From the NCBI RefSeq assembly GCF_900101435.1, contig NZ_FMZH01000009.1, positions 133,266-197,265 on the forward strand: a DNA stretch of 64,000 bases, given 5' to 3'. Below the pieces are notes generated by a model that was not told the origin of the DNA, searched no databases, and saw nothing but the letters and a program-made list of their open reading frames with translations. Source of the DNA: Pedobacter soli. GTDB taxonomy: Bacteria > Bacteroidota > Bacteroidia > Sphingobacteriales > Sphingobacteriaceae. The first letter of the stretch is position 1. Each line of letters opens with the position of its first letter. Shown here one piece after another: positions 1 to 51,692 of the stretch. The translations under genes and the position numbers were made by a program.

Positions 1-272
1 CTGAGCCTCCTGTTTTCGAAAATTTTGTATTCCGCAACATCGATCTTTCCAAAGCGCCAACAAAAGAGCCCGTAATCAATATCAATGGTTTTAAAGCTGA
101 AGGGCATAAACTTAAAAACGTGGTGTTTGATGGGGTTAAACTTCCAGCCAGTGCAGAAATAAAGGTAAATGATGCGCTAAATGTGAAATTTAAAGGTATG
201 ATTATCGATAATGGCACTACACCCAAATATGTGGTTCAGGATAGCGAGAATGTACAGCACCAGGCCAAATAA
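1..272 (+). CDS. C-terminal end of a beta-helix (GH28-like) protein, 5' partial
   Basis: The window opens inside this gene; 89 residues are readable before the TAA. The visible part reads like the last coils of a right-handed parallel beta-helix: short strands of the type ENFVFRNIDL, then an INGFKAEGHKLKNVVFDGVKL turn pattern with regularly spaced N, F and V residues. Such coils occur at the ends of GH28 polygalacturonase-like and pectate-lyase-like proteins, common in Bacteroidota glycan loci. The active site lies upstream of the window, so the enzyme class is inference. It converges on the susD gene, with a strong hairpin between them. Confidence 0.6.
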   Translation, partial: EPPVFENFVFRNIDLSKAPTKEPVININGFKAEGHKLKNVVFDGVKLPASAEIKVNDALNVKFKGMIIDNGTTPKYVVQDSENVQHQAK

Positions 273-302
273 TTCAATTTTTTTGCAGTTTGTCCAACAT
301 AA

Positions 303-347
303 AAATGGGGTTTAACCGAAATATCTTGTTTCGGTTAAACCCCATTT
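303..347. terminator. Bidirectional terminator hairpin
   Basis: A perfect 19-bp inverted repeat (303-321 and 329-347) with a 7-base loop sits between the convergent beta-helix gene and susD. The stem begins with A-rich and ends with T-rich sequence, so it can terminate transcripts from both sides. Confidence 0.85.
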
Positions 348-389
348 ACGATTAGCTTGTTTGTAGGTTAAGTTCTGAAATTTATCAAC

Positions 390-2387
390 TTACCAACCTG
401 GATTTTGCATAGCCTGTTTTTGCGCAGGTGATAATGCTTCTCCATTAATCTTTAATACATCCAGGAAACTTTGCGGTATTGGTCGCAGATAATGTTTGCT
501 TTCTATGGGTTTAGCCTCCAGATTAAATGCAGCTGTACGGGCTACGAGTGTTTTAGTGCGCGCCAGGTCTTCCCATCGCATTAGCTCTCCTATTAACTCC
601 CTTGAGCGTTCATCCAGAATAAAAGCAGTAAATTTATCTGCATTAGAACTTGCTCCCACTTTATCATAAAAGTCTCTTGTGGAATTAAAAATATCAGCTT
701 CACTGTTTAAATGCATCGAACTTAAAGTGTTCACCGTAGTAACGGGTATATTATTCGATTCGAAATAAGTGTTTTTATCAGAATACGAAACCGCGGTGGT
801 GGTTACGGCAGGGTTGGTTTTATAGGCAACCCCACCATCTATGTATGCAGAGCGGTCTTCTCCTTCCTTATAGGCAGCGCGATCGCGTACACTGTTCAGA
901 TAGGGGATAGCTTGTGCATATTGTCCCATCCGGCCGTAGGCTTCAGCAGCAATTAAATAAGTCTCGGCAAGACGTGCCAGGATACCATCGCGCTGGCCAA
1001 ATTGTGAGGCAACCAGGTTTCTCGAGCCGTCCATGAATTTGGATAAGGCCACATATTGTCCAACACTGTAATTACCATGTGTATTTAAGTAGCTTTGTGG
1101 CTGACCGGCAAAATACCTGACAAACATAGTTGGTTTACGGCGTGCAATATCAGTTGGCAAAGCCGGATCGGCACCTGCAACTATCGGGGTATAGCGGGTA
1201 TCGCCAGCATTGTTAACAATGTACAAAATTGCTTCCTCGCCTACGCCAAATTTCGCCTGACCTTCCTGCGCAGGTGTTGGAGCACTGCCTTTAACCCATT
1301 TTGGGAGGCTGGCTGCGTTATTGGCAATATATCGGGTTTTGAAGCTTTTCCAGAATCTTGAATCATTTACACGGTCAAATACATCCAGCGCATAGTCGGT
1401 TGACCGCATTCTTTGAAATTCACGTCCGCCTGCAATATCGCGGATCATGCCAGGCAGGGTTTGGTAAATAGATGGATAATATAAGTGCACCTGATTGCCG
1501 TATCTTCCCTGCGTTGCAGTGTTATTCGAAAACTGAGCTGCGAGAATCACTTCCCTGTTGGTTTCATTTGCACCATCCACAGTGGTAAAGTTCCACAAAT
1601 CGCTAAAGTTGGTTGCCAAACTGTGTTGGCCGCTAGTGATCACCAAATCGGCATATTTAACCGCATTTTGCAAATCAGCAGTTTTGGTGTCGGTATTCCA
1701 GTCGTTGTTAATTTCGCTGGCGCGGAACAGGTAAGCTTTGGCTAAAAAGTGCGCAGCAGCCCATTTGGTAATTCTTCCCCGCTCGGTAACCGTAGCCGGA
1801 AGGAGGTTGTAAGCCTGGGTAAAATCCTGAATTACCTGCTCATACACTTCCTTTGCCGAGTTGCGCGTAAATTCATCTTTAATGGTTTCCAGTGATTCGA
1901 GCTGTAAGGGCACTCCTCCAAATTGTTTTACCAGTTTAAAGTAATCGAAGGCACGCATAAAATACCCTTCTCCCAACCGGATGTTTTTATTGGCGCCGGT
2001 GTAGTAAAGCGGTACATTTTTTATAACAATATTGGCTGAGTTTATATTGGTGTACATGTTGTCAAAAACGGCCTGTACATCCGAATTAAAGGGTGTTAAA
2101 GTGCCATCGTAAGAGTTCCACATTTGTTCTGTTCTGTCGCCACCCACAGTAAATTCATCAACTCCGTAATTGGTGGTGGTATAGGCCCAGGTATAGTTGA
2201 AATGAAATTTTAAGCTTTGGTACATGCCAATAACCAGGCCATCCAATCCTTCAGTTTTTTGGAAATCGGATGTGTTGCGGGAGTTAATCACTTCTTCATC
2301 CAGAAAACTTTTTTTGCAGGAAGTGGGAAGTATCATCAAGCTACCCAACAATGCTACTGCTGATATTAAATTTATAATCTTTTTCAT
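390..2387 (-). CDS. SusD/RagB-family outer-membrane glycan-binding lipoprotein
   Basis: A 665-residue SusD homolog that would bind oligosaccharide at the cell surface and cap its SusC partner. The N-terminus is a lipoprotein signal ending at LPTSC, with acylation at the Cys before KKSFLDEE, typical of SusD. The body carries the usual TPR-like helices (for example GEGYFMRAFDYFKLVKQFGGVPL, seen at about residues 140-165) and a C-terminus with RELIGELMRWEDLARTK and YLRPIP, the normal SusD ending. The ATG at 2387 is preferred over an in-frame TTG two codons upstream. It lies 21 bases downstream of susC, so the two are one transcript. The glycan substrate cannot be read from the sequence. Confidence 0.95.
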   Translation of the reverse strand: MKKIINLISAVALLGSLMILPTSCKKSFLDEEVINSRNTSDFQKTEGLDGLVIGMYQSLKFHFNYTWAYTTTNYGVDEFTVGGDRTEQMWNSYDGTLTPFNSDVQAVFDNMYTNINSANIVIKNVPLYYTGANKNIRLGEGYFMRAFDYFKLVKQFGGVPLQLESLETIKDEFTRNSAKEVYEQVIQDFTQAYNLLPATVTERGRITKWAAAHFLAKAYLFRASEINNDWNTDTKTADLQNAVKYADLVITSGQHSLATNFSDLWNFTTVDGANETNREVILAAQFSNNTATQGRYGNQVHLYYPSIYQTLPGMIRDIAGGREFQRMRSTDYALDVFDRVNDSRFWKSFKTRYIANNAASLPKWVKGSAPTPAQEGQAKFGVGEEAILYIVNNAGDTRYTPIVAGADPALPTDIARRKPTMFVRYFAGQPQSYLNTHGNYSVGQYVALSKFMDGSRNLVASQFGQRDGILARLAETYLIAAEAYGRMGQYAQAIPYLNSVRDRAAYKEGEDRSAYIDGGVAYKTNPAVTTTAVSYSDKNTYFESNNIPVTTVNTLSSMHLNSEADIFNSTRDFYDKVGASSNADKFTAFILDERSRELIGELMRWEDLARTKTLVARTAAFNLEAKPIESKHYLRPIPQSFLDVLKINGEALSPAQKQAMQNPGW

Positions 2388-11180: not shown

Positions 11181-12386
11181 TTGGTGCTTTTATTAAAATT
11201 TGAGCTTTTGCATCCCATTTTCCTTGCCGTTATCGGTGCAATTTTTATTTTTTCAGTGGTTGTGGTTAAACTGTTGCTTTATGGGCGCGATAAGTTTTAC
11301 CTCAATTTTTTGCTGTCGATGGCCATTGCAGGTATGGCCTGGTATGGCCTGATTTATCTTTTAACCAATTCAGGGCTGATTAAAGATTATCCCTACTTGT
11401 TTAATAAAGGATTACCTTTTTATTATACTGTTGCACCATGTTTGTACCTCTATTTTCGGGGTTCTTTGAACAAGGAGCACGCCATTTTTAAGCCATCGCA
11501 CCTATTCCATTTTCTGATTGCTATTCCCGCAGTCATTTCCATTATCCCCTACAACATGCTGAGTTATGCCGGGCAGCACGAGGTGGTAAGCAGGGTAGTG
11601 GCCGATGTGGAATTTGCATTTTCAGACAGCGAATATATTGTAGAGCCCTGGCACTGGTATGCTTTTCCTTTCTCAGCCCTTATTTATACCCTTTTACAGA
11701 TCAGGCTGGCCTATCGGGCTTCTAAGGTGCCTGGTCAAAACAAGCAAACCATTAACTGGATCTATTTTTTTAGTGCAGTTTGCTTCGTCATTTTTGCGGG
11801 TATGCTACTTATTAATGTCTCGATTTTACAAAACAGGAGCCATATCTGGTCTATTTTACATGAAGGATCGATCGTCATATTTTTATGTTGCTGTTTGCTG
11901 GTTTTGAGTTTTATGTTTTTTTTTAATCCCGAACTCATTTATGGGTTTACTAAAAAAGCAGTATTAGCTGAGGTAAAAGCACCAACCGATACCTTGCCTG
12001 TGGCCGATGAAAAAGCCAGGCCTAAAATTGTGGATACCCACCTGGCTGAACAGGTAACACTAGCGATTAAAGAGCAGGAGCTTTTCAGAAGGCCCGGACT
12101 TAACCTGAGCGAGCTGGCTTCGGCATTGGAAATTCAGAACCACAAACTTTCTGAACTTTTCAATAACCATTACCAGCTTAATTTCAGTACCTACATCAAT
12201 AACTTGCGTATCGAATATATAAAGGCCAGATTAGATCAGGGCGATTGGAAACAGTTCACCCTGGAAGCCATTGCCCTGGATGCAGGTTTCTCTTCGCGCA
12301 ATACTTTTTTTAATGCTTTTAAGAAAGTGATGCACACTACGCCATCGGCTTACCTTGCTACTTTGAAGGATGAAAAAAGCCTGTAA
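11181..12386 (+). CDS. Membrane-anchored AraC-family regulator
   Basis: About 401 residues. The N-terminal 255 residues hold roughly seven hydrophobic helices and no periplasmic sensor domain. After a linker (about 255-295) comes an AraC-type double helix-turn-helix, with LNLSELASALEIQNHKLSELFNNHY and then TLEAIALDAGFSSRNTFFNAFKKVMHTTPSAYL, the usual signature. This layout, a 7TM-like module fused to HTH_18, is common in Bacteroidota. There is no ATG at the expected position: the frame opens after a stop at 11169, with TTG at 11181 and GTG at 11184 the only early starts, so the exact start is uncertain. The ligand and targets are unknown. Confidence 0.85.
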   Translation: MVLLLKFELLHPIFLAVIGAIFIFSVVVVKLLLYGRDKFYLNFLLSMAIAGMAWYGLIYLLTNSGLIKDYPYLFNKGLPFYYTVAPCLYLYFRGSLNKEHAIFKPSHLFHFLIAIPAVISIIPYNMLSYAGQHEVVSRVVADVEFAFSDSEYIVEPWHWYAFPFSALIYTLLQIRLAYRASKVPGQNKQTINWIYFFSAVCFVIFAGMLLINVSILQNRSHIWSILHEGSIVIFLCCCLLVLSFMFFFNPELIYGFTKKAVLAEVKAPTDTLPVADEKARPKIVDTHLAEQVTLAIKEQELFRRPGLNLSELASALEIQNHKLSELFNNHYQLNFSTYINNLRIEYIKARLDQGDWKQFTLEAIALDAGFSSRNTFFNAFKKVMHTTPSAYLATLKDEKSL

Positions 12387-16761: not shown

Positions 16762-17283
16762 TTATTTAGCCATGTCATTTACAGGTAATTCGAATAAGCT
16801 TACGGCTGCATTGTGATAATGCGCGGGTAACTGATCGGTGTTTTTTAAATCGAAAAGCCCGAGGTAATCGAAACCCGATTTTTGATAGTGATTAATTAAT
16901 CCCTGGTTTTCACCTATTGTATCTAAACGGACAAAATCTTTATGGTGCGTTTTGGCATAAGCCTTAGCCTAGGTTACAATTGCGGTTACCAGGTTTTGTC
17001 CCCTAAAATCGGGATGGGTAGCAATGCGGTGAATGTAAACCGCAGGATCGGTATTTTTATCTTCCCATATTTGCGGATCGCTGAAAGTGGTCGCCCAAAC
17101 ACAGGCTACCTGGTCATCAATCAGCATTTTCCATTGCCTGAGTTCAGCTACTTCTGTTTCAATCAGTGCTTGTTCAAACTGAGGCCATTGCACAATGTAC
17201 TTCGTTTTCTGGAAAGCTGTAGCTATTTTGTAAAGTTCAAAAATTTGTTCAATATCATTTGGGGTACTGTTTAATATTTCCAT
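16762..17283 (-). pseudogene. PaiA-like GNAT N-acetyltransferase interrupted by an in-frame amber codon
   Basis: The frame from the ATG at 17283 reads as a GNAT acetyltransferase for 104 residues and then meets TAG at 16969-16971, inside the acetyl-CoA-binding region (IHRIATHPDFRGQNLVTAIVT then stop). Without any frame shift the same frame continues for 68 more residues, AKAYAKTHHKDFVRLDTIGE and INHYQKSGFDYLGLF, the normal second half of a GNAT domain, and ends at TAA 16762-16764. One base change, most simply TGG to TAG, would explain it. The start lies one base after the PaiB stop; paiA-paiB pairing is known from Bacillus subtilis. Loss of function, sequencing error or readthrough are all possible. 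Confidence 0.85.
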
Positions 17284-26488: not shown

Positions 26489-26568
26489 ATTTCCATTTCA
26501 GCAAAAAAAACCTTTTCCACTTCAATAACCCGGTTCTGTTGAAGGTTTAAATAGCTTTTAATCATTTT

Positions 26569-27459
26569 TTATAAGGTAAAACCCACTTTATAAACCTGTT
26601 TTTTATAAGTTCCGGGCGACATGCCCGTAATTTTTTTAAACGATTTGGAAAAGTACGAAAGGTTATCAAAACCCGTTTGGTTTGCAATTTCAGAATAGCT
26701 TAACTGGCTGGTGGCGAGTAGGTATTGGGCGCGTTCTATGCGCTTGCCAAGTACATAATTAACCGGGCGCTCGCCGGTAAAGGTTTTAAACAAGCGCGAA
26801 AAGTAATCGGGATGTTGATTTATACGCGAGGCTAGTACTGTTACCGATAGATCCTGATTCAGGTTAATTAAAATATAATTTACCGTTTCGGCTATTTTAA
26901 CTGGGGTTTTCGGGTGCGATTCCTGTTTTAAGTAAAATTGGGGTTGCAAGAAACGGCCCATCAGTTGCAGCAATATTCCTTGTGTTTCCAGGTAAGCTGC
27001 CAAACTCTGCCGGTTATTTAATTCCTGGTATTCCTTATAAAAAATGTTCTTTTCATATATTTTGGGGTCGTCAGACCGGTTAATGCCCCGGCCGGGGTTA
27101 ATTTCGAGTAAACGCTTAAAAAGGTCAATATCCATTGAACTGGCCTTGATTCTGGATATGGCCCGCCTATGTGCAAAGAGGGATGTCCCATCTGCAGATT
27201 CTTCAAAAAACTGGGCAAAATACTGACTTAGAAAACTGTTGCAATGGAGATTACACAAAGTAAAGCTTGGAATAATATAGAGATAGCCTGCTTCGAGCTG
27301 CAAACTTTGTTGCTGATCAGATATTGCTCCTGATCCTTCATCAATGTAATAAATGCGGTAATAGGGGCTAATTACATTGCGGTAATCCCATTTGGCAGAA
27401 AGTTTTACATAATCTACATTGAGTAAAGAAAAAGTATTTTGAAGAATTCTTTTGGCCAT
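26569..27459 (-). CDS. AraC-family transcriptional regulator
   Basis: A 296-residue AraC regulator. Residues 1-180 resemble a cupin-type sensor (ISPYYRIYYIDEGSGAISDQQ, LEAGYLYIIPSF). The C-terminal pair of helix-turn-helix motifs spans about 195-290, with LSVTVLASRINQHPDYFSRLFKTFTGERPVNYV and then YSEIANQTGFDNLSYFSKSFKKITGMSPGTYKK. It is divergent from the GH29 fucosidase gene, with about 205 bases between starts, so it is the likely activator of that gene, responding to a sugar. That link is inference. Confidence 0.9.
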   Translation of the reverse strand: MAKRILQNTFSLLNVDYVKLSAKWDYRNVISPYYRIYYIDEGSGAISDQQQSLQLEAGYLYIIPSFTLCNLHCNSFLSQYFAQFFEESADGTSLFAHRRAISRIKASSMDIDLFKRLLEINPGRGINRSDDPKIYEKNIFYKEYQELNNRQSLAAYLETQGILLQLMGRFLQPQFYLKQESHPKTPVKIAETVNYILINLNQDLSVTVLASRINQHPDYFSRLFKTFTGERPVNYVLGKRIERAQYLLATSQLSYSEIANQTGFDNLSYFSKSFKKITGMSPGTYKKQVYKVGFTL

Positions 27460-27531
27460 TTTTTTTAATAAAATGTCGGATTTTTACAATAAATAGTCTG
27501 TTTTAATCAAATTTAGATCGGATAAGATACT

Positions 27532-27539
27532 TATTTTTG
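27532..27539 (+). promoter_or_regulatory. Promoter -7 element for the GH29 transcript
   Basis: TATTTTTG matches TAnnTTTG and lies in the gap between the AraC gene and the fucosidase gene, about 125 bases upstream of the fucosidase ATG. A short Cys-rich ORF starts 18 bases later. Confidence 0.55.
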
Positions 27540-27557
27540 AATGTAATAGCCAAATAT

Positions 27558-27632
27558 ATGAAACATCCTGAACACAATTGTCTGGCTGCATGCTGCTCAT
27601 ATTTTTGTGCTCCGCAGCTTTCGGTGCAGTAA
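27558..27632 (+). CDS. Possible 24-residue Cys-rich leader peptide
   Basis: A short frame, ATG to TAA, lies just after a promoter core and 32 bases before the GH29 start. It encodes 24 residues with four cysteines (C8, C12, C13, C17; HNCLAACCSYFC). No family is recognised. It could be a leader peptide or chance. Confidence 0.25.
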   Translation: MKHPEHNCLAACCSYFCAPQLSVQ

Positions 27633-27664
27633 AATTTAACATTCAAAATTTAAAGAAACCATAA

Positions 27665-29182
27665 ATGAAAAAAACATTAGTTGTAATGATTACGGCATTT
27701 TTCATGTCGATAAATGTTCAGGCGCAGCAAAACAACACCCGCATTGAACCTCAGAAATTTAAGCCGACAGACGAATCCTTAAAGCAATATCAATATCCGG
27801 ATTGGTTTCGTGATGCAAAATTCGGAATCTGGTCTCATTGGGGGCCGCAGGCCGTTCCCAGGCAAGGCGATTGGTATGCCAAAAACATGTATATGCAGGG
27901 CAGCGGCCAGAACAAATACCATGTAGCGCATTATGGAACACCCTCTAAATTTGGTTACAAGGATATAATCCCATTGTGGAAAGCAGAAAAGTGGAATCCG
28001 GAGCAATTAATGGCTCTTTATAAGAAAGCCGGAGCAAAGTATTTTGTAAGTATGGGCTCACATCATGATATGTTCTTTTTGTGGAATTCTAAAATCCACA
28101 GGTGGAATTCGGTAAAAATGGGGCCGCAGAAAGATGTGGTGGGGCTGTGGCAAAAGGCAGCTAAAAAAGAAGGACTGCGTTTTGGCGTTTCAGAGCATCT
28201 CGCAGCCAGTTTTAACTGGTTTCAACCCAGTCATGGGGCAGATAAAACCGGACAGTTTGCTGGCATTCCTTATGATGGACGTGATCCGCAATATGCAGAT
28301 CTTTATCATTTACCAGCCGATTCGAGCAACATTAATGAATGGATTACCAATAATCCCGGCTGGCAAAAAAAATGGCTGGAATACGTAACCGAACTCGTTG
28401 ATAACTATCATCCCGATTTGCTTTACTCAGATAGCAAGCTTCCGTTTGAGGACATTGGCCGCACCATGGTAGCACATTACTATAATCAGGATATGGCTAA
28501 AAATAAAGGTAAGCTCGAAGCTGTTTATACCCCTAAAGAACCATCTGAGGGTAAATGGGCACAGGATGTTGAGCGTGGCGTACTCGATTCGATCAGTCCT
28601 TTCCCTTGGCAAACCGATACCTCAATAGGCGACTGGTATTACAGAACCGGACAGAAATACAAAAGTGCGAATGAAATTGCGCAGCTTTTAATAGATATTG
28701 TGAGCAAAAACGGCAATTTATTAATTAATGTTGTGCAAACTCCTGAGGGCGACCTGGAGCCCGATGTGGTTAAAGTTGTAACTGAAATAGGTGAATGGAT
28801 TAAACTGAATGGCGAAGGGATTTACGCCACGCGCCCCTGGAAAGTGTATGGCGAAGGACCTTCAACCCTTAAATCGAACCAGACAAAAGGTCGTTTTGGC
28901 GGCTTAACAGATACGCGCGAATATCAGGCTGCAGATATCCGCTACACCACTAAAGGAAACGATCTTTTTGCATTTTGTTTAAACGTTCCGCAGGGGGATA
29001 TTGAGATGAAACTGTTGGGACGGAACTCGAAATATCTGACTAAGCCAATAAGCGCAGTTACTTTGCTGGGTAGTAAGCAAAAGCTGAACTGGGAGCAGCG
29101 CGATGATTTGCTGCTGATAAAAAAGCCTGAAAATTATCCGGCCTGGCAGGTAACCGGATTTAAAGTAGAATTTAAGAAATAG
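27665..29182 (+). CDS. GH29 alpha-L-fucosidase
   Basis: A 505-residue secreted glycoside hydrolase with a signal peptide ending NVQAQ. The GH29 catalytic (beta/alpha)8 domain has AKFGIWSHWGPQAVP, AKYFVSMGSHHDMF, and the probable nucleophile D256 in HPDLLYSDSKLPFED. A C-terminal beta-sandwich follows from about residue 395. It would release alpha-L-fucose from glycans. The segment around residues 300-330 (SISPFPWQTDTSIGDWYY) is the usual GH29 structural motif. It is divergent from an AraC regulator and ends at a strong bidirectional terminator. Confidence 0.93.
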   Translation: MKKTLVVMITAFFMSINVQAQQNNTRIEPQKFKPTDESLKQYQYPDWFRDAKFGIWSHWGPQAVPRQGDWYAKNMYMQGSGQNKYHVAHYGTPSKFGYKDIIPLWKAEKWNPEQLMALYKKAGAKYFVSMGSHHDMFFLWNSKIHRWNSVKMGPQKDVVGLWQKAAKKEGLRFGVSEHLAASFNWFQPSHGADKTGQFAGIPYDGRDPQYADLYHLPADSSNINEWITNNPGWQKKWLEYVTELVDNYHPDLLYSDSKLPFEDIGRTMVAHYYNQDMAKNKGKLEAVYTPKEPSEGKWAQDVERGVLDSISPFPWQTDTSIGDWYYRTGQKYKSANEIAQLLIDIVSKNGNLLINVVQTPEGDLEPDVVKVVTEIGEWIKLNGEGIYATRPWKVYGEGPSTLKSNQTKGRFGGLTDTREYQAADIRYTTKGNDLFAFCLNVPQGDIEMKLLGRNSKYLTKPISAVTLLGSKQKLNWEQRDDLLLIKKPENYPAWQVTGFKVEFKK

Positions 29183-29257
29183 CAGCAAAGCCAAAAAATC
29201 GTTTGCTGACGAAAATAACTTTAATTAAAAGGTAGATTTAAAGCAATAATTAAAATA

Positions 29258-29300
29258 AAAAACGAGACAAACAGGTTAAAAGCCGGTTTGTCTCGTTTTT
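29258..29300. terminator. Bidirectional terminator with tRNA-terminator-like sequence
   Basis: A perfect 15-bp stem (29258-29272 and 29286-29300) with flanking A and T runs sits between the convergent GH29 and receiver genes. The stem ACGAGACAAAC is almost the same as that of the terminator after tRNA-Arg at 30108-30146. Confidence 0.85.
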
Positions 29301-29326
29301 GCAGGCATTTTTCTGCTAACCAGTTT

Positions 29327-29686
29327 CTATTTTATCAAATCAGAAATTGTCTTAAGCAGCGTATCATAATTACAGGGTTTTCCGATAATAGCATCGGCCA
29401 GACAATCTAATTCACTGATTTTTTTATGCGAAAGGGCAGTCATTAAAATTATTGGGATTTGAGCGGTAAGCCACGAATTTTTAATTTTATCACAAATTTC
29501 CCTTCCGTCGGCATCATCCAGGCAAATATCCATAATAATTAAATCGGGATTGAAAGCAACGAGCGAGTCTTTAATCAGCGATGACTTATCGACTAAACTG
29601 ACAATGTAGCCCTCATCTGAAAGCAATAATTCCAGAGATCCAAGCAAAAACAGGTCATCATCAACTACCAGGATTTTCTTATTCAT
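29327..29686 (-). CDS. Stand-alone response-regulator receiver domain
   Basis: A 119-residue protein that is only a CheY-like receiver. The acidic pocket (VVDDD, residues 8-11), phosphoacceptor D53 (DLIIMDICLDD), T83 (LMTALS) and K103 (IIGKPCN) are all in place, so it should be phosphorylated. There is no output domain and no kinase gene next to it. It may act as a phosphate sink, a relay or by protein contact. ATG at 29686. Confidence 0.92.
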   Translation of the reverse strand: MNKKILVVDDDLFLLGSLELLLSDEGYIVSLVDKSSLIKDSLVAFNPDLIIMDICLDDADGREICDKIKNSWLTAQIPIILMTALSHKKISELDCLADAIIGKPCNYDTLLKTISDLIK

Positions 29687-30105
29687 ATGCTATAGAAGTA
29701 AGCCGCTTAGTCTGTGATATTACAGTAGAGCGTTTAATAACTCAAAATATCATTTTTTTTAGACATCACAAAAAAATAGTGTACTTTGATATTGACGTGG
29801 TTTTGTAATTCTGTGCTTACATTGCTTGTTTTTATGCCCTTGTGTGTCTCCCGTAATTTCAGCACTGAAAATGCTTAAAAAATATAAATGCTCAACAAGG
29901 ATAATTAATAAATAGGTTAGTTTGGGGCTTTCATTAAGGATGTAAGCTTAATTCTACCATAATAATTTTCAATCCATTCTTTAAAGTTACCACAATGTGA
30001 TAGCATGTCTAGCTGCCTGATTAAATCTCGTAAGCTTTAGATAATAACTTATTGAATGGAGGAGCTGAGCTAATATATTTGATAAATATCGGTCTAGGAG
30101 ATAAA
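29687..30105. other. Intergenic region, no gene seen
   Basis: An AT-rich stretch of about 420 bases upstream of the receiver gene and downstream of the tRNA terminator. It must hold the receiver gene promoter. No convincing reading frame, hairpin or repeat was found. Confidence 0.5.
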
Positions 30106-30146
30106 AAAAACGAGACAAGCAGCTTGAAAACTGATTTGTCTCGTTT
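30106..30146 (-). terminator. Terminator of tRNA-Arg
   Basis: Arms 30108-30118 and 30136-30146 pair over 11 bp. Read on the minus strand, the hairpin follows two bases after the tRNA 3' end and ends in a T run (complement of the A run at 30103-30110). Confidence 0.85.
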
Positions 30147-30147
30147 G

Positions 30148-30219
30148 TGCTCCCGACGAGATTCGAACTCATATCGATGGTACCGGAAACCATAATTCTA
30201 TCCATTGAACTACGGGAGC
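30148..30219 (-). tRNA. tRNA-Arg (anticodon CCG)
   Basis: A 72-nt tRNA on the minus strand. The acceptor stem GCTCCCG pairs with CGGGAGC, followed by discriminator A; CCA is not encoded. The anticodon stem ATGGT/ACCAT closes the loop TTCCGGT, giving anticodon CCG, which reads CGG. The T-arm carries TTCGAAT between ATGAG and CTCGT. The D-arm is GTTC...GAAT. A terminator follows at once. Confidence 0.95.
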
Positions 30220-30455
30220 AAGGCTGCAAATATAGAAAAATCAAAATCATTTAATCAAAATAAATCGGCTATTTTTAGTCATTAAATATAAAAGCAGCTG
30301 GCTTTTTGAACCTCAGGTTTTATTTTGTGTTAAAAAATAATTAAATCATTGTCTCTGTTTTCTATAGCCGCGGTTTCTGGCCCCGTATTTTTCAATTTAG
30401 TGCCTGCTTAACGATTTTTAAAGCCCCGGCACTGGCTTTTTTAGAAATAAAAATG

Positions 30456-30510: not shown

Positions 30511-31887
30511 ATGGAAGAAATGGTTGTAGAAGAGATTCAGGAACTGCTTGAAAAGGAAAACGATAAAGCTTTAAAGCAATATCTCGACCAACTGAACATT
30601 TCGGATGTTGAACAACTTATTGACGAGCTGCCGCAGTACGCTGCCAAATTTATCGAAACCCTCTCCATAAACAGGGCCGTAAACGTTTTCCGGATTCTTG
30701 ATTTTCCAACTCAGGAGCGTATCATCAAAAAACTTTCAGGCAATAAGCTGAATCAGATTATTAAAGATCTGCCACCTGATGACCGTACAGCACTTTTTAG
30801 TGAGCTAAAAGGCGATGTGGTAAAGAAAATGATTACACTTTTACCTCCGCAGGAACGTAATGAGTCGCTTACCCTTTTAGGTTATAACGAATACAGTATT
30901 GGCCGGTTAATGACCCCCGATTACATTGCCGTTAAGCCCGAATGGTCAATTGCACGGGTTCTGGCGCACATCAGGCGTTACGGTAAAAACTCCGAAACCA
31001 TTGATGTGGTATACGTAATCGATAAAGAAGGCGTATTATTGGACGATATCAGGATCAGAGAAGTGTTACTGGCCGATCCTGAAGCCATTATTGGCGAATT
31101 AACCGACAGACGCTTCATCGCCTTAAAGGCTAACGATCCGCAGGAAGATGCCATTAACATTTTCAGGATGAATAACCGGGTGGCTTTACCGGTAGTAGAT
31201 GAAAACAACATTCTTTTGGGTATTGTAACCGTTGATGATATTTTGTGGATTGCCAACGAAGAATATACCGAAGATATGCATAAAATAGGGGGTACCGAGG
31301 CTTTGGATGAACCCTATCTCGATACCTCTATCTTTAACCTCGTTAAAAAACGCGTGGGTTGGCTGGCCATTTTAATGGTTGGCGAAATGCTTACCGCTAC
31401 GGCGATGGGCTTTTTCGAAGGACAAATCCACAAGGCTACCGTATTGGCCCTGTTTATTCCCTTAATTATTTCATGCGGTGGAAACAGTGGCTCGCAGGCC
31501 TCTACGCTAATTATCCAGGCCATGGCATTGGGCGAAGTAACCATTAAAGACTGGTGGCGGGTAATGAATCGTGAAATTACCTCAGGCTTCCTTTTGGGCT
31601 TGTGTTTAGGCTTGATAGGCTTCCTGCGTATTTTTGTGTGGCATGTGGCTGCACCCAATGTATACGGTGAGCACTGGATCCTTATTGCGGCAACCATTAG
31701 TGTATCGTTAATATTTGTAGTATTGTGGGGTTCGCTTAGTGGCTCAATGCTACCAATTCTGCTCAAAAAGCTTGGTGCCGACCCTGCTACATCTTCAGCT
31801 CCTTTTGTAGCCACACTGGTTGATGTAACCGGGTTGATTATATATTTCAGTTTTGCCGTATTGTTTTTAAAAGGCGTATTATTATAG
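30511..31887 (+). CDS. mgtE: MgtE magnesium transporter
   Basis: A 458-residue Mg2+ channel/transporter. It has the cytoplasmic MgtE N domain (about residues 20-130, with LPPDDRTALFSEL), two CBS domains (about 135-255, RLMTPDYIAVKPEWSIARVL and ALPVVDENNILLGIVTVDDI), and a five-helix membrane domain with the family signature ISCGGNSGSQASTLIIQAMALGE near residue 325. The N and CBS parts sense cytoplasmic Mg2+ and gate the pore. The ATG at 30511 is preferred to a TTG two codons earlier. It is followed 9 bases later by a HAD hydrolase gene. Confidence 0.96.
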   Translation: MEEMVVEEIQELLEKENDKALKQYLDQLNISDVEQLIDELPQYAAKFIETLSINRAVNVFRILDFPTQERIIKKLSGNKLNQIIKDLPPDDRTALFSELKGDVVKKMITLLPPQERNESLTLLGYNEYSIGRLMTPDYIAVKPEWSIARVLAHIRRYGKNSETIDVVYVIDKEGVLLDDIRIREVLLADPEAIIGELTDRRFIALKANDPQEDAINIFRMNNRVALPVVDENNILLGIVTVDDILWIANEEYTEDMHKIGGTEALDEPYLDTSIFNLVKKRVGWLAILMVGEMLTATAMGFFEGQIHKATVLALFIPLIISCGGNSGSQASTLIIQAMALGEVTIKDWWRVMNREITSGFLLGLCLGLIGFLRIFVWHVAAPNVYGEHWILIAATISVSLIFVVLWGSLSGSMLPILLKKLGADPATSSAPFVATLVDVTGLIIYFSFAVLFLKGVLL

Positions 31888-51303: not shown

Positions 51304-51377
51304 GTGGTTGGTGGTGCACCAACCACTAAATGCTTATGCAATATTTTGTAACTCCATGGTTGGTGGCCCACCAACCA
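51304..51377. repeat. Two GGTTGGTG-loop-CACCAACC hairpins
   Basis: Hairpin one: GTGGTTGGTG at 51304-51313, loop GTG, CACCAACCAC at 51317-51326. Hairpin two: TGGTTGGTG at 51357-51365, loop GCC, CACCAACCA at 51369-51377. Both perfect. A third, looser one (TTGGC/GCCAA) is near 51388-51403. They share the GGTG...CACC core with hairpins at 22.4 and 57.5 kb. Confidence 0.8.
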
Positions 51378-51488
51378 GTTTCTCTGATTGGCAACTGCCA
51401 ACCACTAAAGCAACCACATTCCTGAAACAACTGGCCAAAAACAATCTGATTTTTTGCTTGTTCCTATAGTACATCAATTTACAGAGCT

Positions 51489-51692
51489 ATGGAAACAAAT
51501 AAGGAAAAAGGTAAAGTTGTTGAGAACGATTTACTGGATAAAAAAGTAGAAGATGTGCGTGAGCACGATACGCTCGATGAAAATAAATCATCGAAGGTAA
51601 CCACCAATCTGTTTACTAAAGATAATAAACGTAAAAATAATCCACTGGGCCCTGGCCACGAACCCGGACCAACCCCAGGATCAGGAATATAA
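51489..51692 (+). CDS. Small charged hypothetical protein
   Basis: A 67-residue hydrophilic protein with no signal peptide. The first 50 residues are Lys/Glu/Asp-rich and likely disordered. The C-terminus is a Gly/Pro motif, NNPLGPGHEPGPTPGSGI. No function is known. It has its own strong terminator downstream, which supports a real transcription unit. Confidence 0.55.
   Translation: METNKEKGKVVENDLLDKKVEDVREHDTLDENKSSKVTTNLFTKDNKRKNNPLGPGHEPGPTPGSGI

Follow-up and report, generated by a model that had tools for sequence, protein, structure and literature searches.

An in-frame stop codon in a GNAT gene

In the 64,000-nucleotide stretch of Pedobacter soli DNA analysed here (the window), a gene for a GNAT-family N-acetyltransferase has probably been inactivated by a recent nonsense mutation. 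We give this reading, which would place the mutation in an ordinary GNAT gene of this Pedobacter lineage, a probability of about 70%. It is supported by the presence of one stop with no frameshift, by the uniqueness of this stop among the examined relatives, and by the conservation of the downstream frame. An early stop that no examined relative shares at that place most likely reflects either a very recent gene loss or an assembly error.

The gene lies on the minus strand (17283-16762), on contig 5 of a 6.0 Mb draft assembly in 30 contigs. Translation of this strand gave 173 codons and a terminal TAA, with exactly one internal stop, a TAG at codon 105 (16971-16969): the product reads M...IVT up to this codon and AKAYAK...NDMAK after it. 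The plus strand of the region has many stops. The first-pass annotation had described a single in-frame TAG at 16969-16971 without a shift, giving no strand, and had placed family-like sequence on both sides of it; both points are borne out. The GNAT proteins of relatives align unbroken over the stop, with 89% identity for the nearest copy (Pedobacter kyungheensis, L090, whose PF04299 protein is 90% identical), 81% for the second nearest (P. ghigonis, L091, with 81% for the PF04299 protein as well) and, further out, about 70%. Judged by this alignment, which is far beyond chance, the two halves are one gene. The PF04299 gene lies upstream, and a single base, 17284, separates its end from the ATG of the GNAT gene, in agreement with the spacing noted earlier. 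The same genome carries an uninterrupted distant paralogue of the GNAT gene (42-43% identity) on contig 12.

Table 1. Features of the GNAT locus, in window coordinates.
Feature	Position	Strand	Basis
GNAT-family N-acetyltransferase gene, 173 codons plus stop, one interruption	16762..17283	-	reading frame; PF00583 (GNAT), 1.9e-9, 38.2 bits (Pfam cut-off 20.7), stop entered as X, match spans stop; 89% identity to nearest relative
In-frame TAG, codon 105	16969..16971	-	tryptophan in 79/80 relative loci, serine in 1/80
Codons 1-104, all that is translated if TAG acts as a stop	16972..17283	-	beta1 to beta4 and first half of alpha3, from model of nearest intact relative
Downstream remainder, codons 106-173 plus stop; rest of alpha3, beta5, alpha4, beta6, beta7	16762..16968	-	relative's model; first in-frame ATG/GTG/TTG is codon 171
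PF04299 (FMN_bind_2, PaiB family) gene, intact, 206 aa	17285..17905	-	149.1 bits, cut-off 22.4

Codon 105 in related genomes

A scan of genome contigs confirmed 185 relatives, of which the best 80 were kept and all 80 examined; the collection behind them may omit records of the window's own genome. Among these best 80, the one locus with serine in place of tryptophan at codon 105 was from Chitinophaga arvensicola (L104), and no internal stop was found in any of the 80 GNAT homologues. At 31 further loci (the gene itself, its paralogue and 29 relatives, the last partly overlapping the best 80 by genome), codon 105 encoded tryptophan in 30 and was a stop in the gene itself alone. In a search of the genus, 22 of 145 genomes, counting the window's own, had a match at E up to 1e-60. 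All 21 other close copies had tryptophan at codon 105, and none of the 21 had an internal stop; the stops listed in this search for two genomes (G014 and G090) are terminal. Tryptophan at this place in relatives, which had been proposed as a check, was thus found in 79 of the 80 loci and in all 21 genus copies. A stop in the frame at a position where intact homologues carry a sense codon is the pattern of a nonsense pseudogene, and by its sequence the gene would be classed as one.

With the paralogue as the query, 141 matches (the sum of the genome table) were obtained in 117 of the 145 genus genomes. Three of them had an internal stop: the window's GNAT gene, a copy in G004 and a partial match in G104. 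Because there were 3 internal stops among the 141 matches, interruptions would amount to about 2% of these two related GNAT groups in the genus, which we regard as an ordinary background. The G004 copy, a paralogous GNAT gene of another Pedobacter genome (L024, positions 197-712, minus strand, about 200 bases from the contig end), has a single TAG of its own at codon 34, unrelated to the stop at codon 105.

Family assignment and the PaiB-like neighbour

The curated PaiA model (NF053587, spermidine/spermine N1-acetyltransferase) was not reached by the GNAT protein, which scored 19.7 bits against a cut-off of 250. Three intact orthologues scored 22.2, 22.2 and 18.0 bits and the paralogue 25.4 bits on the same model. 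The product is best described as a GNAT with some resemblance to PaiA, outside the curated PaiA family.

We searched for a PaiB-like neighbour in the best 80 of the 185 relatives by tblastn with the window's protein, in flanks that reached 3 kb at most and were shorter at some loci. It was found in 9 of the 80 loci, 8 from Pedobacter and 1 from Flavobacterium, where it sits 201 bases away from the GNAT gene; in the other 71 it was not found within these flanks. The first-pass annotation had spoken of a half-dead PaiAB pair. This overstates the case, because the curated PaiA score is far from reached and no PaiB-like gene was found in the flanks searched in 71 of 80 relatives. A literature search for PaiA, PaiB and acetyltransferase together gave no match.

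Predicted effect of the stop on the fold

The structure was modelled for the nearest intact relative, not for the broken protein (mean pLDDT 91.6). The GNAT fold is present in this model, with 2oh1 as the best PDB match (E 1.7e-11). Codon 105 falls inside helix 98-112 (alpha3), and past it lie beta5 (117-123), alpha4 (127-135), beta6 (139-144) and beta7 (161-167). Truncation would, according to the model, remove half of alpha3 together with these four elements of the fold. The earlier placement of the stop inside the acetyl-CoA site was roughly right: the stop is in helix alpha3, ten residues past the glycine of R94-G95 in DFRGQNLV, a region that we take to be the CoA-binding loop.

GNAT enzymes bind acetyl-CoA between beta4 and beta5. 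From such general knowledge of the family, the 104-residue fragment should be inactive, because the second half of the acetyl-CoA site and the C-terminal strands would be missing. Under the reading that we prefer, a single, very recent nonsense mutation would have arisen in an otherwise intact GNAT gene directly after the gene for a PaiB-family flavin-binding protein. Translation would begin at the normal ATG and be ended by RF1 at the UAG after 104 residues, and the resulting fragment, without the rest of alpha3, beta5 and alpha4 and without the C-terminal strands, would be inactive. The upstream PF04299 gene would be untouched, and the uninterrupted distant paralogue on contig 12 would remain. 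In this account we infer that the TAG base is real rather than an artefact, and that the PF04299 and GNAT genes form one transcript.

Selection on the two sides of the stop

Against the nearest relative, dN/dS (NG86) was 0.093 before the stop and 0.062 after it (104 and 63 codons). The values before and after the stop were 0.061 and 0.084 against a second relative and 0.117 and 0.117 against a third, and no relaxation of selection downstream of the stop was seen in these three comparisons (about 0.06, 0.08 and 0.12). When the changes after the stop were polarised with two outgroups, 5 nonsynonymous and 10 synonymous changes fell on this lineage, and 4 and 10 on that of the nearest relative. 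The nearest relative gave a background ratio of 0.10, with which the share of the branch without constraint was estimated at 3% and at most 19% (a rough one-sided 95% Poisson bound). Residues invariant in 44 homologues (43 sequences from relatives and the genome's own paralogue) were all kept, 16 of 16 before codon 105 and 14 of 14 after it.

Because the 14 invariant residues are all kept and selection downstream is unrelaxed, the stop would have to be either very recent or false; unrelaxed selection after the stop is expected in both cases. An assembly error of one base would produce the same picture and would likewise leave downstream selection unbroken. If there was an inactivation, it would be a recent one, as the first-pass annotation had supposed and as is supported by the tryptophan codon in relatives and the unrelaxed selection downstream.

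Synonymous differences from the nearest relative were denser after the stop (25 in 38.7 sites, versus 18 in 63.8 before it; Fisher p 0.0004), with a split at the stop that was chosen after the fact. The denser synonymous change after the stop is equal in the two lineages (10 and 10 polarised changes). The segment 16762-16968 may be a short piece that has recombined. We also considered a recombination boundary right at the stop; the nucleotide profile has just a local dip (82% at 16800-16949).

Decoding of the TAG codon

The genome has an uninterrupted RF1 gene (485.5 bits, cut-off 423.25). Among 54 other genes of the window, TAA is the stop in 41, TAG in 12 and TGA in 1; this count omits 6 of the 60 mapped regions, namely two at the window edges, the GNAT gene, an ORF over the tRNA-Arg region, an antisense ORF and a doubtful ORF at 51367. 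Rfam gave 47 tRNA matches in the draft genome (150 of 507 candidates scored). No amber-suppressor tRNA (CUA; CTA in the DNA) was among those called by ARAGORN at 46 of the 47 sites, a set that is incomplete because tRNA-Ile with GAT is absent from it; some tRNA genes are thus missing from the draft or from the list. The 47th match (29.5 bits; L080, G000:C18:146080-146390), not called by ARAGORN, overlaps a sub-threshold match to YrlA (Y RNA-like, RF02553); the locus has two such matches (38.5 and 35.7 bits, gathering score 69), and its side-by-side tRNA-like modules are perhaps a Y RNA. The model for PylS gave 22.8 bits, under its cut-off of 178.15. A change of genetic code or a suppressor was rejected on this tRNA survey, incomplete as its set is, on RF1, on PylS and on the use of TAG.

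Folding of the RNA after the stop was no better than that of shuffled sequences (z 0.46), and a hairpin that would aid readthrough was rejected on this result. In-frame ATG, GTG or TTG codons after the stop are absent before codon 171 of 173; the rarer potential start codons ATA and ATT occur at 123 and 130. Reinitiation giving a two-part enzyme was rejected on the absence of the three common start codons. With codon 171 as the first such codon in frame, the downstream half is unlikely to form a separate gene.

Stops elsewhere in the assembly

The assembly has an estimated completeness of 99.46% and contamination of 0.04%. The stop surveys cover genes with a counterpart in the stretches fetched from relatives. 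For the window, ORFs of three relatives were used as queries; 183 of 234 were kept, and for 138 the best hit reached 60% identity or more. Among these comparable genes of the window, no further clear internal stop was found; the doubtful ORF at 51367 has three. Fourteen rows were flagged: 5 were cuts at the window edge, 3 were the GNAT gene itself, 2 were a gene at 11187 with a stop within its last five or so residues, 2 were an ORF at 30511 that is antisense to an intact gene, 1 was the ORF over the tRNA-Arg region and 1 was the ORF at 51367 (132 codons, three stops). Of 306 ORFs of relatives compared with the rest of contig 5, 86 had their best hit at 65% or more, and no clear internal stop was found among these 86; of the 5 flagged rows, 3 were cuts at the ends of stretches and 2 had stops among the first 11 residues of the alignment, which we read as start-site differences. 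A reciprocal run of the genome's own ORFs against relatives flagged 0 of 71 in the rest of contig 5, a result that bears on the relatives' copies and not on breaks in the genome's own genes. Among the genes that allowed a comparison, in the window and elsewhere on contig 5, there was no sign of a poor assembly full of stops. The surveys argue against a generally poor assembly and cannot clear a single base.

Two other places in the window drew our attention. At 51367-51597 (plus strand), the 132-codon ORF of a P. kyungheensis genome (G091) has an 81% match, over its residues 56-132, that contains three stops; this is either a decayed small gene or no gene. At about 26500-30300, by tRNA-Arg (30147-30219), gene content varies among the three relatives: of the fetched stretches, that of G121 has no match past about 29.2 kb and that of G082 none at 26.6-29.7 kb. 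This region may be a site of insertion or rearrangement.

Alternative explanations

The strongest competitor is an error of sequencing or assembly, by which the gene would be intact in the living strain and one base of the consensus wrong. We consider this unlikely on balance, though a possibility to be taken seriously. The stop is a singleton in a 30-contig draft, and the constraint downstream of it cannot be told from that on an intact gene. Cooley and Wright (PMC11017572) report that such errors are common in draft assemblies and that assembly artefacts account for many pseudogenes with internal stops. The absence of another clear internal stop among the comparable genes speaks against an error, as do the completeness and contamination figures; neither clears a single base.

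The remaining explanations keep the stop and rescue some function. Readthrough, programmed or leaky, would yield full-length enzyme from low-level decoding of TAG, perhaps as a device for down-regulation, and would account for the purifying selection downstream. Belinky et al. (2021, PMC7918605) argue that bacterial genes often tolerate in-frame stops, with translation continuing through them, but they took only stops that at least two genomes share at an identical position, and the one at codon 105 occurs in a single genome: a stop at the same place was found in 0 of the 80 relative loci and in 0 of the 21 other genomes of the genus that carry a close copy. The intact RF1, the 12 of 54 window genes that end in TAG as an ordinary stop, the PylS score, the unremarkable RNA structure and the lack of a CUA tRNA among those called, in a draft set that is incomplete, weaken the readthrough that the first-pass annotation had allowed for, and we hold it to be improbable. 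A literature search on stop codon readthrough in Pedobacter returned matches that were off the subject, judging by title and the start of the abstract. It is very improbable that the UAG was gained recently and is tolerated as a readthrough codon, with near-cognate decoding supplying the full enzyme at a low level, so that the gene would be turned down and not lost. A fragment of 104 residues that still works, alone or with a separately translated second half, is hardly credible: the first half is under constraint similar to that in relatives, but the second half has only the rarer start codons before codon 171, and beta5, alpha4, beta6 and beta7 would be missing according to the model of the intact relative.

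With a recent nonsense mutation as the preferred reading, the GNAT gene should be annotated either as a pseudogene or as a gene that needs support from reads, and the strain should not be credited with a complete PaiAB-like pair. If verified by reads, the gene would cleanly illustrate a loss at a stage before decay, the constraint on its downstream part being unchanged.

Comparison with known systems

Among solved structures, the GNAT of Listeria monocytogenes (2oh1) is the best match both by sequence profile (3.8e-11) and by the fold of the intact relative (TM 0.78); it differs in its low identity (20%), and no substrate is given in the title of its entry. Second in the profile search (2.2e-6) was PaiA of Bacillus subtilis (1tiq). 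It is alike in its GNAT fold (TM 0.69-0.74), and the GNAT gene here also stands beside a PaiB-family gene. PaiA differs in that it ranks only 37th-38th in the fold search with the intact relative's model, below several other GNATs, with 15-16% identity by fold alignment, in the score on the curated model (19.7 bits against 250), and in that a PaiB-like neighbour was found in just 9 of the 80 relatives. The closest parallel to the interruption itself is given by the recent nonsense pseudogenes of bacterial genomes, which likewise have a single in-frame stop, an otherwise intact frame and intact selection, and occur in one genome; if the stop is real, we see no difference in kind between them and the GNAT gene described here.
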